64,000 nucleotides of DNA from Dehalococcoidia bacterium (lineage in GTDB: Bacteria; Chloroflexota; Dehalococcoidia; Lucifugimonadales; Lucifugimonadaceae): the NCBI GenBank assembly GCA_014239735.1, contig JAAZYI010000020.1:60328-124327 (forward strand), written 5' to 3'. Made by a program: the position numbers and the translations under genes. The notes beneath the pieces are model-generated. The model was not told where the DNA came from, did not search any database, and worked only from the letters and a program-made list of their open reading frames with translations. Of this stretch, positions 21,770 through 57,842 are shown piece by piece (position 1 is the first letter of the stretch; each line of letters begins with the position of its first letter).

Positions 21770-23233
21770 CTATTTAGGCTCAGGAACCTGTATGACCCTT
21801 AGCAAATTAGTGTTTCCTGGTATTCCAATAGGCATTCCTGCTGCGACAACAACATAATCTTTATTTTTTGCTATTCCTGTCTGTATAGATACATCAGATC
21901 CCAATTTAAACATTGCTTGTACTGTTTTAAATTGAGGAGCGGATAAAGGAATTACGCCCCATCTTAAAAGTAACTTTTCTACATTTTTCTCATGAATTAG
22001 TCCTATGATTGGTGCTTTTGGCCTAAAAGATGAGACTCTGCCAGCAGTACTGCCAGACTCAGTGAAGGCTAGTATCGCCTTTGCCTCTACTAAATTTGAT
22101 GTTTTACAGGCATTATATGCAATTGCATCATCAATTGATGAAAACCCTTTTCCTATAAATCTTTTTTCAAGGTATTCTTCAAAATTAAAATAATTTTCTG
22201 CTTCAACTGAAATTTTTGCCATATTCTTAACTGTTTCAACGGGGTATTTACCTATAGAAGTTTCTGCAGAAAGCATTATTGCATCAGTTCCATCCATAAC
22301 TGCATTGTGGATATCGGTTACCTCTGCTCTTGTAGGTGATGGTGATTCAATCATTGATTCAAGCATTTGAGTGGCAGTGATAACCGGTTTTCCCTGATGA
22401 TTTGCTTCCTCAATAATAATTTTTTGTATTCTAGGAACTTTCTCTAATGGCAATTGAACACCTAGATCACCTCTTGCTACCATTACGCCATCAGATTCAG
22501 ATATGATTTCTTTTAAGTGAGGGACAGAGCTTGGAAGCTCTATCTTTGATATAAGCTGAGGGTTAAAATTGCTATTGCTATAATATTCTTTTACTTTTTT
22601 TACATCACCTTCATCCCTAATAAATGAAAGCCCAACAAACGTGGCATTAACTTTTCTTGCAAATTTTAGACCTTTAATCGTTTCATCCGTGAAATAATCT
22701 AGTTTGGATATTGATCCTGGAATTGTTACAGACTTATTAGACTTTAGTACAGAGGTATTTTGAACAGCACATAAGATTTCATCGCCTTTAACTTTATTTA
22801 CATTTAACTTTATAGCGCCGTCATCTAGGAAAATTATTTTAATGTTTTTTAAATCCTTTTTGAGCCCTTCTGGCCATACTTTAATTTTATTGATTGCTCC
22901 GTTATTAATCTCAGTTGCTGAGCCTAGGATAATTTTTTGCCCCTTTTTTAGCTCTATTGAATTATTAGGAATTTTCCCAACTCTGTACTTGGGCCCAGGT
23001 ATATCAATTAATATACCTAATGGTACTTTCAGTTCTTCAGCTGCTTTTCTAGAATTTTCAACATATTTTATATGCTCTTTAGTTTCGCCATGAGATAAGT
23101 TTAATCTAGCAACAGACATGCCTTCTTTGATTAGCTTCTTTAGAGTATCAGTTTCTCCAGTTGCTGGGCCTATAGTGCAAACAATTTTCGTTTTAGGCCT
23201 ATTTTTTATGAAATTATTTATTGAATATTTCAA
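21770..23233 (-). CDS. pyk: Pyruvate kinase
   Basis: TKIVCTIGPATGE, ARLNLSHG, MVARGDLGVQLPLEKVPRIQK, GKPVITATQMLESMI. Confidence 0.98.
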   Translation of the reverse strand: MKYSINNFIKNRPKTKIVCTIGPATGETDTLKKLIKEGMSVARLNLSHGETKEHIKYVENSRKAAEELKVPLGILIDIPGPKYRVGKIPNNSIELKKGQKIILGSATEINNGAINKIKVWPEGLKKDLKNIKIIFLDDGAIKLNVNKVKGDEILCAVQNTSVLKSNKSVTIPGSISKLDYFTDETIKGLKFARKVNATFVGLSFIRDEGDVKKVKEYYSNSNFNPQLISKIELPSSVPHLKEIISESDGVMVARGDLGVQLPLEKVPRIQKIIIEEANHQGKPVITATQMLESMIESPSPTRAEVTDIHNAVMDGTDAIMLSAETSIGKYPVETVKNMAKISVEAENYFNFEEYLEKRFIGKGFSSIDDAIAYNACKTSNLVEAKAILAFTESGSTAGRVSSFRPKAPIIGLIHEKNVEKLLLRWGVIPLSAPQFKTVQAMFKLGSDVSIQTGIAKNKDYVVVAAGMPIGIPGNTNLLRVIQVPEPK

Positions 23234-23343
23234 TATATTTATCTCGAATCTGTAGAAATTATTTTTCTGTAACTTTATTCTAAATAAAGGATAACTAAAT
23301 AAAGTAGCTATAACAACAGACAGGATAATAAAAATATTTCTTT

Positions 23344-24561
23344 ATGGAAGCAATTGGCTTAATTAGTAAAAACTCGTTTAACGAATACGGTGACTCTATT
23401 TCAATTTATTTGAACCATTCTTTAGATAATGGATATGAATTGAACAAATTATTTATTGATTCAGAAATTGAAGAAAACGAGATTGTTAAAAGAGGGAACT
23501 ATAACACCCTTATTGAAGACTTTTCATTTAGAAATAAAAAACTACTGATTTTTAATTCTAATGATATTGCAGAAAATTTACCTTCATTAATTGAAAATTA
23601 TATCAAGCTTAATGAGAGAGGCGTGCAGATTGAATTAATTAATTCATCAACTCAAGATTTATTATCTGATGGCTTATTGAGGCTTGGTTACCTGAAACCG
23701 AAGAATGAAAAACAAATTAAAATTGCTGAAACTATAAAATCTAAGTCAATTAAAGGAGGTTTTCTAGGAAGGGCTCCTTTTGGGTATTTAAAATCTTCAT
23801 CAGGAGGATTTATTATTGATCCTGATAAATCAGAGTTGATAAAAACTATTTTTAATCTTTATAGTGGAGAATATGGGAAAAATAATAGAATTGGATTAAG
23901 AAAAATTTCAAAAATAATTAAAACTAAATACTCATTTAGAGAATTAAAATGGGCTCCTCAAACTATAAAAAAAATATTAAAAAACAGATTTTATACAGGT
24001 GTTTATAGAAGAGATTTAGTAATAATATCTAATAACCATGAACCTATTATTACAAATGAACAGTTTGATTTTGTGCAAAATTTATTTTTAAGCCGAAGAT
24101 TGAGTTTTAATAAATCTAAGTCAAAAATGAGCATGAGAAATAAAATTTTATTTAAATGTGGTTATTGTAATTATAAATTAAATAAGTCTACTCATCATAG
24201 AAAATGGAAGAGAGCCTCAGGAGAAGAATTTAAAAAAATATATACTTATCTAAATTGTCAAAATGATCAATGTAATAAAGTTATAAATAAGAGATTAGAA
24301 ATTGAAAAATATTATATTAATGATCAGGACGAAGACTTCAATAATATAAAAGAGTTCGCCAGTTACAATAGATTAGTTAACGATTTTAAAAAAAATATTA
24401 AGTTAGTTATTAGGGGTAGATTTAAAGTTTCCAGTCTTAAATATGATATAGATCAGCTTAAAGAATATGAGAAATATTTTGAAATCAATAGCCCTAAAAA
24501 CAAATATAATAAGATTATAGAAGTTAAGAATAACTTCAATGAAATTTTGACTCCTGCTTAA
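23344..24561 (+). CDS. Large serine recombinase-family protein with degenerate N-terminal catalytic domain
   Basis: Recombinase domain GGFLGRAPFGYLKSSSGGFIIDPDKSELIKTIFNLY...WAPQTIKKILKNRFYTGVYRRD; zinc ribbon FKCGYCNYKL...LNCQNDQCNK; no resolvase R-x-S or DRLxR motif in the N-terminus. Confidence 0.75.
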   Translation: MEAIGLISKNSFNEYGDSISIYLNHSLDNGYELNKLFIDSEIEENEIVKRGNYNTLIEDFSFRNKKLLIFNSNDIAENLPSLIENYIKLNERGVQIELINSSTQDLLSDGLLRLGYLKPKNEKQIKIAETIKSKSIKGGFLGRAPFGYLKSSSGGFIIDPDKSELIKTIFNLYSGEYGKNNRIGLRKISKIIKTKYSFRELKWAPQTIKKILKNRFYTGVYRRDLVIISNNHEPIITNEQFDFVQNLFLSRRLSFNKSKSKMSMRNKILFKCGYCNYKLNKSTHHRKWKRASGEEFKKIYTYLNCQNDQCNKVINKRLEIEKYYINDQDEDFNNIKEFASYNRLVNDFKKNIKLVIRGRFKVSSLKYDIDQLKEYEKYFEINSPKNKYNKIIEVKNNFNEILTPA

Positions 24562-24575
24562 AAGTTTAATATATT
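24547..24575 (+). promoter_or_regulatory. Candidate rnpB promoter
   Basis: TTGACT (24547-24552), 17-nt spacer, TATATT (24570-24575), 7 nt to predicted rnpB 5' end at 24583. Confidence 0.6.
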
Positions 24576-24582
24576 CAATTTC

Positions 24583-24920
24583 GATCAAGGTGGACGAGCA
24601 GTCGCTTTTTAAAAGAGGAAAGTCTGAGCACCATCGGATTAGAATGCCGGTTAATTGCCGGGCAGGGTAACCTGACGGAAAGTGCAACAGAAAGTATACC
24701 GCCATATGGTAAGGGTGAAATGGTGAGGTAAGAGCTCACCTCTATTAAGGAAACTTAATTGGATTGGCAAACCCCATTCGGTGCAAGGTCAAATAGAGGA
24801 GCTAATGCGAATCCGACAAGCTTCTGGGTAGACCGCTTGATTCATTTGGTAACAAATGAACTAGATAAATGGCTGCTGCCTTAATAAGGTACAGAACTCA
24901 GCTTATAGTTTGCCTTGATC
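24583..24920 (+). ncRNA. rnpB: RNase P RNA
   Basis: P1 helix GATCAAGG (24583-24590) / CCTTGATC (24913-24920); conserved GAGGAAAGTC, ACAGAAAGTATACCGCC, GGTAAGGGTGAAATGGTGAGGTAAGAGCTCACC, GGCAAACCCC, ACAGAACTCAGCTTATAG. Confidence 0.97.
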
Positions 24921-26091
24921 AGTCTTTTTGACCTCTTTGGTTCCACTGAGAATTAACAAACATATTTAATCCAGGATCAAGTATTATATCTTTGTATTTC
25001 TCTGGAGGATTATCTTTAATAAAATCTTCATCTAATTCTACGCCCCAGCCTGGACCTTTAGGTAAACTAAAATACCCATCTACAACTTCTGGATAATTTG
25101 TGCCGGCATTTTTCACATGAGGGTCAGCAAAATCATTAAAGTGTTCAACTATTTTTCCATTACGTAGAGTAAAAACAAGACTTACGGAAGCCGCAGTAGA
25201 AATTATACCTCCAACATTATGAGGGGCTACCATTATAGAATAGTTCTCGGCATTCGATGATATTTTTTTTGCTTCTAGTATTCCTCCAGTCTGTGTTATA
25301 TCAGGCTGAATAACATCTACACATCCTAAAGACCATAGTTCTCTAAACTCAGGTGCACCATACAACCTTTCTCCTGTAGCTATTGGAAGTCTAGTGTGAT
25401 CTCTAACTGACTTTAAAGCTGGCAGGTCACCTGGCCTAGTAGGCTCTTCTAGCCATGCCGGCTCATATTTTTCAACATAATTTGCTATCTCTCTTGCTTG
25501 ATGAGGAGAAAACCTTCCATGTAGTTCTAGCATTATTTGCGCTCTGTTTCCTGCTACTGAAGCAACTGCATCTATTAGGTCCATAGACTTATGGAATTCT
25601 TTTCTAGTTAATTCCAAGTCTCCATTACCAAATGGATCAAATTTCATTCCAATATATCCTTTATCTACAACTTTTTGAGCAGCTTCTGCAAATTGATTAG
25701 GATCTCTCTCAACCGTGTACCAACCATTAGCATATGCAGGAATTTTATCCTTTACTTTTCCTCCTAGAAGCTTATAAACAGGCAGATTAGTAAATTTGCC
25801 CATTATATCCCAAAAAGCTAACTCAACTAAGGCTAGTCCTGTGTAGACAACTTCTCCTGGCTTTCCAAAATCTAGAAGGGTGAACCTTCTATATAAGTCT
25901 TCAATGTCAAAAGGATCATGACCAATAAAATGCCTCTCAACATCTTTTAGAAACTCAGTAACAGTGTGTGTTTTGCCTAGTATTCTTGCCTCCCCAACTC
26001 CTACTATCCCTTCATCTGTTTCTATTATTAAGTAAGTTAAATTTCTCCAAGGAGTCCCAAGAACTAACGTTCTAAATCCTGTTGTTTTCAT
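24919..26091 (-). CDS. Enolase superfamily, mandelate racemase/muconate lactonizing family
   Basis: VGVGEARILG, GMKFDPFG, IMLELHGRFS, WLEEPTRPGD, IATGERLYG, VQPDITQTGGILEAKKI, VAPHNVGGI. Confidence 0.92.
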   Translation of the reverse strand: MKTTGFRTLVLGTPWRNLTYLIIETDEGIVGVGEARILGKTHTVTEFLKDVERHFIGHDPFDIEDLYRRFTLLDFGKPGEVVYTGLALVELAFWDIMGKFTNLPVYKLLGGKVKDKIPAYANGWYTVERDPNQFAEAAQKVVDKGYIGMKFDPFGNGDLELTRKEFHKSMDLIDAVASVAGNRAQIMLELHGRFSPHQAREIANYVEKYEPAWLEEPTRPGDLPALKSVRDHTRLPIATGERLYGAPEFRELWSLGCVDVIQPDITQTGGILEAKKISSNAENYSIMVAPHNVGGIISTAASVSLVFTLRNGKIVEHFNDFADPHVKNAGTNYPEVVDGYFSLPKGPGWGVELDEDFIKDNPPEKYKDIILDPGLNMFVNSQWNQRGQKD

Positions 26092-56969: not shown

Positions 56970-57028
56970 TGATATAAGTCTATTTTTCTCCCTTGATAAT
57001 ACAAATTAATTGAAATAATATTAATGAA

Positions 57029-57114
57029 GTATTTGGGGAGCGATTTGCTGAGAGGGTTTTAAATAAGCCGACCCGTAATACCTGATTTCTGGGTAATGCC
57101 AGCGAAGGGAATAC
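57029..57114 (+). promoter_or_regulatory. TPP riboswitch (THI element)
   Basis: ...GTATTTGGGGAGCGATTTGCTGAGAGGGTTTTAAATAAGCCGACCCGTAATACCTGATTTCTGGGTAATGCCAGCGAAGGGAATAC; hallmark CTGAGA, ACCTGAT, CTGGGTAATGCCAGCG; P1 GTATT/AATAC. Confidence 0.95.
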
Positions 57115-57116
57115 CA

Positions 57117-57842
57117 TTGAATACGACTCTAGAAATTTCAAATATTTCAAAATCTTTCAGTAATCGAAAGGTTTTCAAAAATATATCATTTAACTTAAAA
57201 GAAAAAGAGATAATCTCAATTCTTGGTCCAAGCGGTTGCGGAAAAACAACACTTCTTAATTCAATCTCAGGTATTGATGATGATTTTGTGGGTAAAATAA
57301 AAACCAATACTAAATCAAAAAGAAAAATTGATAATTTCTCATATTCCCAACAGAAAGATCTGCTTATTCCATGGAGAAATGTTTTAGATAATGCTGTTTT
57401 TGGATTAGAAATTACTGGCATTAATAAAGATGAGTCTTACCCTAAAGCGCTAAGTTTGATGAAAAAATTCAAATTGAGTGGAATAGAGAAAAAATTTCCT
57501 CATCAACTTTCCGGAGGAATGAGACAGAGAGTATCTTTAATTAGATCATTTTTATTAGAGAGGCCAATACTTTTATTAGATGAACCTTTTGGTTCTCTAG
57601 ATTCTATTACAAGAGAAGATTTGCAAGATTGGTTAATTGATATATTAAAAATTTTAAAATTATCAGTAATTTTTGTTACTCACGATATAAATGAGGCTAT
57701 AAAAATATCGGACAGAATAATTATCTTAGGCGCAAATCCAGGAAGAATTATCAAAGAAATTAAAGTTAAGGCGAATAATGATAAAGAAAAACTAAGCTTA
57801 TATAAGGAAATTAAAAATAGTTTAGAGGTGTCGGGTGGTTAG
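57117..57842 (+). CDS. thiZ: Thiamine-precursor ABC transporter ATP-binding protein (TTG start; the ORF-track ATG at 57096 lies inside the riboswitch)
   Basis: ILGPSGCGKTTLLNSISG, QLSGGMRQRVSLIRSFLLERPILLLDEPFGSLD; directly downstream of TPP riboswitch. Confidence 0.88.
   Translation: MNTTLEISNISKSFSNRKVFKNISFNLKEKEIISILGPSGCGKTTLLNSISGIDDDFVGKIKTNTKSKRKIDNFSYSQQKDLLIPWRNVLDNAVFGLEITGINKDESYPKALSLMKKFKLSGIEKKFPHQLSGGMRQRVSLIRSFLLERPILLLDEPFGSLDSITREDLQDWLIDILKILKLSVIFVTHDINEAIKISDRIIILGANPGRIIKEIKVKANNDKEKLSLYKEIKNSLEVSGG

Follow-up and report, generated by a model that had tools for sequence, protein, structure and literature searches.

The recombinase locus

The window (the whole stretch of Dehalococcoidia DNA that was analyzed, 64,000 nucleotides) contains at 23344-24561 (+) an ORF that starts with ATG, encodes 405 amino acids, and is intact; an earlier sequence-only reading had both the coordinates and the description right. 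As that reading also stated, the ORF lies between pyk, which is divergent and upstream, and rnpB, which starts 24 bp 3' of it, and no mobile-element genes were found among the neighbors examined by ORF calls and Pfam. The features are as follows:

21770..23233, minus strand: pyk, pyruvate kinase, the divergent neighbor (PF00224, E = 7.5e-102)
23234..23343, no strand: pyk-recombinase intergenic region with divergent promoters, 86-87% identical to that of two congeners
23344..24561, plus strand: catalytically dead large serine recombinase (PF07508, 6e-13; class-wide orthologues; catalytic residues absent; dN/dS 0.15-0.18)
23344..23742, plus strand: degenerate resolvase-like N-terminal domain, residues ~1-133, from alignments; without Ser10, Arg68, and Arg71
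23743..24108, plus strand: linker and recombinase (DNA-binding) domain, residues ~134-255 (PF07508; 23 columns of at least 90% identity)
24109..24333, plus strand: zinc ribbon, residues ~256-330, from alignment (PF13408 in 20/23 aligned members)
24547..24575, plus strand: candidate rnpB promoter from a consensus scan, sigma-70-like TTGACT-17-TATATT, that runs over the recombinase stop codon; matches of this kind do not exceed shuffle expectation
24586..24921, plus strand: rnpB, RNase P RNA class A (RF00010, 288.5 bits)

Elsewhere in the window, a TPP riboswitch at 57024-57126 (+) scored 56.6 bits, barely over the gathering score of 54.3.

Domain content and catalytic residues

The Recombinase domain (PF07508) is matched by residues 160-247 of the window protein (E = 6.2e-13; 49.3 bits, cut-off 21.1) and by 23/23 aligned family members. 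Most of these also match the recombinase zinc ribbon, which was assigned in the window protein by alignment; there it has the zinc ligands C272, C275, and C305, which are near-invariant in the family. The two domains are as well preserved as had been claimed from the sequence. A check proposed at the same time, the search for a Resolvase domain (PF00239), gave no Pfam match in the window protein, even at E values up to 10. The N-terminal domains of two class-level family members, L101 and L092, do exceed the PF00239 cut-off, with 33 and 43 bits, and the N-terminal domain of the family is therefore a resolvase derivative despite its lost residues.

For a comparison of catalytic residues, 72 family members were aligned with 20 active enzymes. 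In place of the active Tyr6, Arg8, Ser10, Arg68, and Arg71, the window protein has Leu, Ser, a gap, Asp, and Glu, and its Arg in the Arg45 column is the sole match among Arg8, Ser10, Arg45, Arg68, and Arg71. The absence of the R-x-S nucleophile and of the D-R-L-x-R arginines is thereby confirmed, as the alignment puts no Ser plus Args in the active site. Across the dead family, Arg68 is found in 2/72, Arg71 in 4/72, and Arg45 in 13/72 members, versus 20/20 active enzymes in each case; Arg8 is found in 29/72 members versus 19/20 active enzymes, and Ser10 in 3/72 (a mis-trimmed row accounting for one) versus 19/20. L086 contains a D-R-I-P-R string and lacks R-x-S. These alignments show a protein of large serine recombinase type without the residues for DNA cleavage, Arg68, Arg71, and Ser10 being gone from nearly the whole family.

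The 29 members with Arg8, together with L097, which has Ser at position 10, and L086 and L092, which retain Arg68, could be taken to mean that the protein is still a recombinase and uses another nucleophile. However, Ser10, Arg68, and Arg71 occur together in 0/72 aligned members, the window protein has none of them, and in Clostridium difficile CD1231, an S10A change abolished recombination (PMC5025042); we regard this reading as scarcely credible.

The structural comparison suggested in the sequence-only reading gave less. Foldseek did return matches to serine integrases, but the alignment had included active viral enzymes, which makes these matches partly circular, and the two models themselves, predicted from the window protein and related loci, were of low confidence (pLDDT 53 and 36).

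Conservation and selection

In a family alignment of 68 members, 33 columns that are at least 90% identical fall in the two DNA-binding domains, 23 in the linker/recombinase domain and 10 in the zinc ribbon, whereas the N-terminal domain has 1/131 such columns and the C-terminal part has none. The C-terminal region, where a coiled-coil subdomain would be expected, is poorly conserved, shorter in the window clade, and poorly modeled in the predicted structures. Within the otherwise divergent N-terminal domain, the cysteine at C27 of the L101 protein is 91% conserved.

The fast evolution of the N- and C-terminal parts and the repeated clean losses of the gene described below are what favor a neutral relic heading for loss. 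Against this, the dN/dS of the recombinase, as the sequence-only reading had proposed to determine, is 0.15-0.18 for the window sequence versus two congeners, and the family matches listed for relatives and for genomes of the class have open frames with no internal stops; a neutral relic is therefore very unlikely. The corresponding value for pyk is 0.07-0.08, and the dead recombinase is shown to be under purifying selection, with a dN/dS above that of pyk and far below 1.

Distribution and inheritance

The window protein was matched in 47/60 relatives, nearly always as one copy per genome. When a profile of 23 homologues was searched against 294 genomes sampled from the class, strong matches (E < 1e-50) were obtained in ~151 of them. 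Full members scored about 200-555 bits versus 154 bits for the best match outside the class, and those outside matches with a readable N-terminus are active enzymes carrying Y-x-R-x-S and [DS]-R-[LF]-x-R. The lower-scoring matches within the class with a readable N-terminus are likewise active, save two dead ones, of which one is divergent and the other lies on a truncated contig; among the matches with a readable N-terminus, no evolutionary intermediates between dead and active proteins were found. The same residue losses occur in orthologues across the class, and so are not due to chance. A search of virus contigs with the window protein gave no related contig, and one with the class member L101 gave one distant relative.

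The gene is absent from several members of the order, from Dehalococcoides-like genomes, and perhaps from the congener G003 (63% complete), and it is thus dispensable, a point against the host role proposed below. The class family f42 has 19-30 reductive dehalogenase matches per genome of 1.4-1.9 Mb, which points to Dehalococcoidia as the class and would make the order of the window SAR202-like.

In a tree of 87 rows, dead and active proteins were split with support of 100/99; taxonomic families such as f19, f47, f58, f61, f85, and f91 were each recovered together, and all members of f1 fell inside one 100/100 group. Because taxonomic families are recovered, the tree indicates that the dead recombinase has been inherited vertically. 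It does not look like a gene on a mobile element: chromosomal synteny is conserved, the tree is congruent with families, and the neighbors include no element genes. A comparison of orthologue synteny had been proposed from the sequence, and it reveals a class-wide gene at a conserved locus rather than a strain-specific one.

Two genomes without the gene bear on its origin. In G057, the gene for a CT398-like protein is followed by rnpB with a gap of 50 bp, and in G072, the order is CT398, RNase HI, rnpB; no recombinase remnants above chance were found in these gaps. Because the other genes remain adjacent where the recombinase is missing, the most fitting reading is that the recombinase was inserted into a pre-existing gene cluster and was later lost in places. 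Alternatively, the gain may predate the split of the G072 lineage, with a loss there. In G003, a locus (L196, on contig C41) has rnpB with a CT398-like gene directly upstream, near a metK-like gene and without the recombinase, which may have been lost or relocated within the genus.

Gene neighborhood

The usual gene order is CT398/Zn-ribbon gene, dead recombinase, RNase HI (not always present), rnpB. A gene for a CT398-like coiled-coil/zinc-ribbon protein, which matches PF24481 and, weakly, PF02591, is in the neighborhood of 33/40 loci, almost always directly upstream of the recombinase. The gap between the two is 3-12 bp in most genomes, suggesting that they may be co-transcribed. The CT398/HP0958/MSMEG_4306 (zf-RING_7) family is an operon partner that is not homologous to the recombinase; the structure of MSMEG_4306 is known (PMC5947703), and the function of the family is unsettled. 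In many class-level loci, rnhA, encoding RNase HI, is next after the recombinase and is followed by rnpB. The class-level depth, this operon context, and the detectable PF00239 domain in class-level relatives go beyond the sequence-only reading.

Such an arrangement invites the idea that the protein serves RNase P or RNA metabolism, with the CT398-like protein and RNase HI as its partners in binding rnpB RNA or RNA-DNA hybrids. Indeed, rnpB is no more than 1 kb away, in the same orientation, at 20/23 assessable order-level loci and at 8/20 class-level loci, and rnhA often intervenes in the latter. However, rnpB lies 5 kb from the recombinase in G020 and is distant from it in G041 and G043, and the recombinase stays; rnpA is present in 56/60 relatives, including G000; the conserved parts of the protein are DNA-binding modules; and the window clade (G000, G002, G005, and G008, 58-89% complete) keeps the recombinase, whereas a CT398 gene was not found there. 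The presence of rnpA and the movement of rnpB in some genomes mean that an RNase P function is not required of the dead recombinase, and we consider this idea unlikely. Persistence of the recombinase without CT398 or with rnpB elsewhere also means that neither neighbor is required in cis. Replacement of RnpA itself was ruled out, as G000 has rnpA as a gene of its own, on contig 14, and the window protein has no PF00825 match.

Several loci depart from the usual arrangement. In the congener G006, a CT398-like gene (L193/L194, C25:9751-10444) extends over two frames with internal stops, a decay-like state for which sequencing error is possible. A large SRP RNA (L092:3778-4045) occupies the usual place of rnpB directly 3' of the dead recombinase in G083, and a c-di-AMP riboswitch (L098:2516-2647) is close to the dead recombinase locus in G168. 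In G014 (97% complete) and G201 (92%), the recombinase is missing and no class A RNase P RNA was matched; the absence of the RNA may reflect an assembly gap or an unusual RNase P.

Proposed role

We infer that the window protein binds DNA, on the basis of its conserved recombinase and zinc-ribbon domains. The sequence-only reading proposed a domesticated DNA-binding protein, and the comparative evidence supports it: the protein is probably a catalytically dead, selected, DNA-binding host protein. An ancestral mobile-element large serine recombinase would have become fixed, within the class, between a CT398-like gene and rnhA-rnpB, and would have lost DNA cleavage while retaining the recombinase and zinc-ribbon domains. 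The resulting protein would bind DNA sequence-specifically, probably as a dimer, and its most likely role would be that of a transcriptional regulator. The putative binding site would descend from a former att half-site next to the protein's gene, at the promoter of the operon or of rnpB, with further sites perhaps elsewhere. That it regulates its own operon or rnpB alone is possible, at somewhat less than even chances. More doubtful is the fuller proposal that a dead DNA-binding regulator arose early in the class to control the CT398-like/RNase HI/RNase P RNA cluster, with the former attachment site as its operator.

The conservation of the DNA-binding parts without catalysis, and the frequent occurrence of active large serine recombinases in the class, would also suit a guardian that sits on the att site and blocks integration by elements with related recombinases. 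However, the attachment site is only putative, and the protein is kept in G000, where there is no other serine recombinase and current pressure is thus unproven; we judge a guardian decidedly unlikely. None of the proteins of G000 (89% complete) matches PF00239, and a role there as helper of an active serine recombinase was therefore ruled out.

An operator was sought in 40 loci, in the 300 bp upstream of the operon; almost everywhere the inverted repeats there did not rise above shuffle level, which counts against the proposed role. The pyk-recombinase intergenic region was rejected as a footprint: it is conserved between the window and the two congeners, yet less so than the rex-merR intergenic region (96-97% identical), and is no outlier.

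Relation to known systems

In the literature search, which is weak because most subscription journals were outside its coverage, no core gene encoding a dead large serine recombinase turned up, and a class-wide, vertically inherited one appears to be undescribed in the literature searched. Co-opted serine recombinases covered by a review of element domestication are active, e.g., DNA invertases (PMC8987985). Serine integrases are tools for genome engineering, and if specific DNA binding is true, the family would offer their recognition module in a natural form freed of catalysis. It would also illustrate the path from a mobile-element enzyme to a fixed host protein. Regulators that originated from nuclease-dead TnpB offer an analogy in how they work, an element enzyme having become a DNA-binding regulator, but they are unrelated proteins and are RNA-guided.

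The best NCBIfam model for L101 is that of XisF, the fdxN element excision recombinase, which is of similar length; the window protein does not match this model (NF041201), and L101 reaches 84.1 bits, far short of the curated cut-off (375). Unlike the dead family, XisF acts as an excision recombinase. The recombinase domain and zinc ribbon are shared with the A118 integrase (4kis) and SPbeta YokA/SprA (9dxh), with profile E values of 5e-24 and 1e-23, respectively; in contrast to large serine recombinases and serine integrases, the dead protein lacks the catalytic Ser and Args, has a shortened N-terminal domain, is not on an element, and appears to be vertically inherited.
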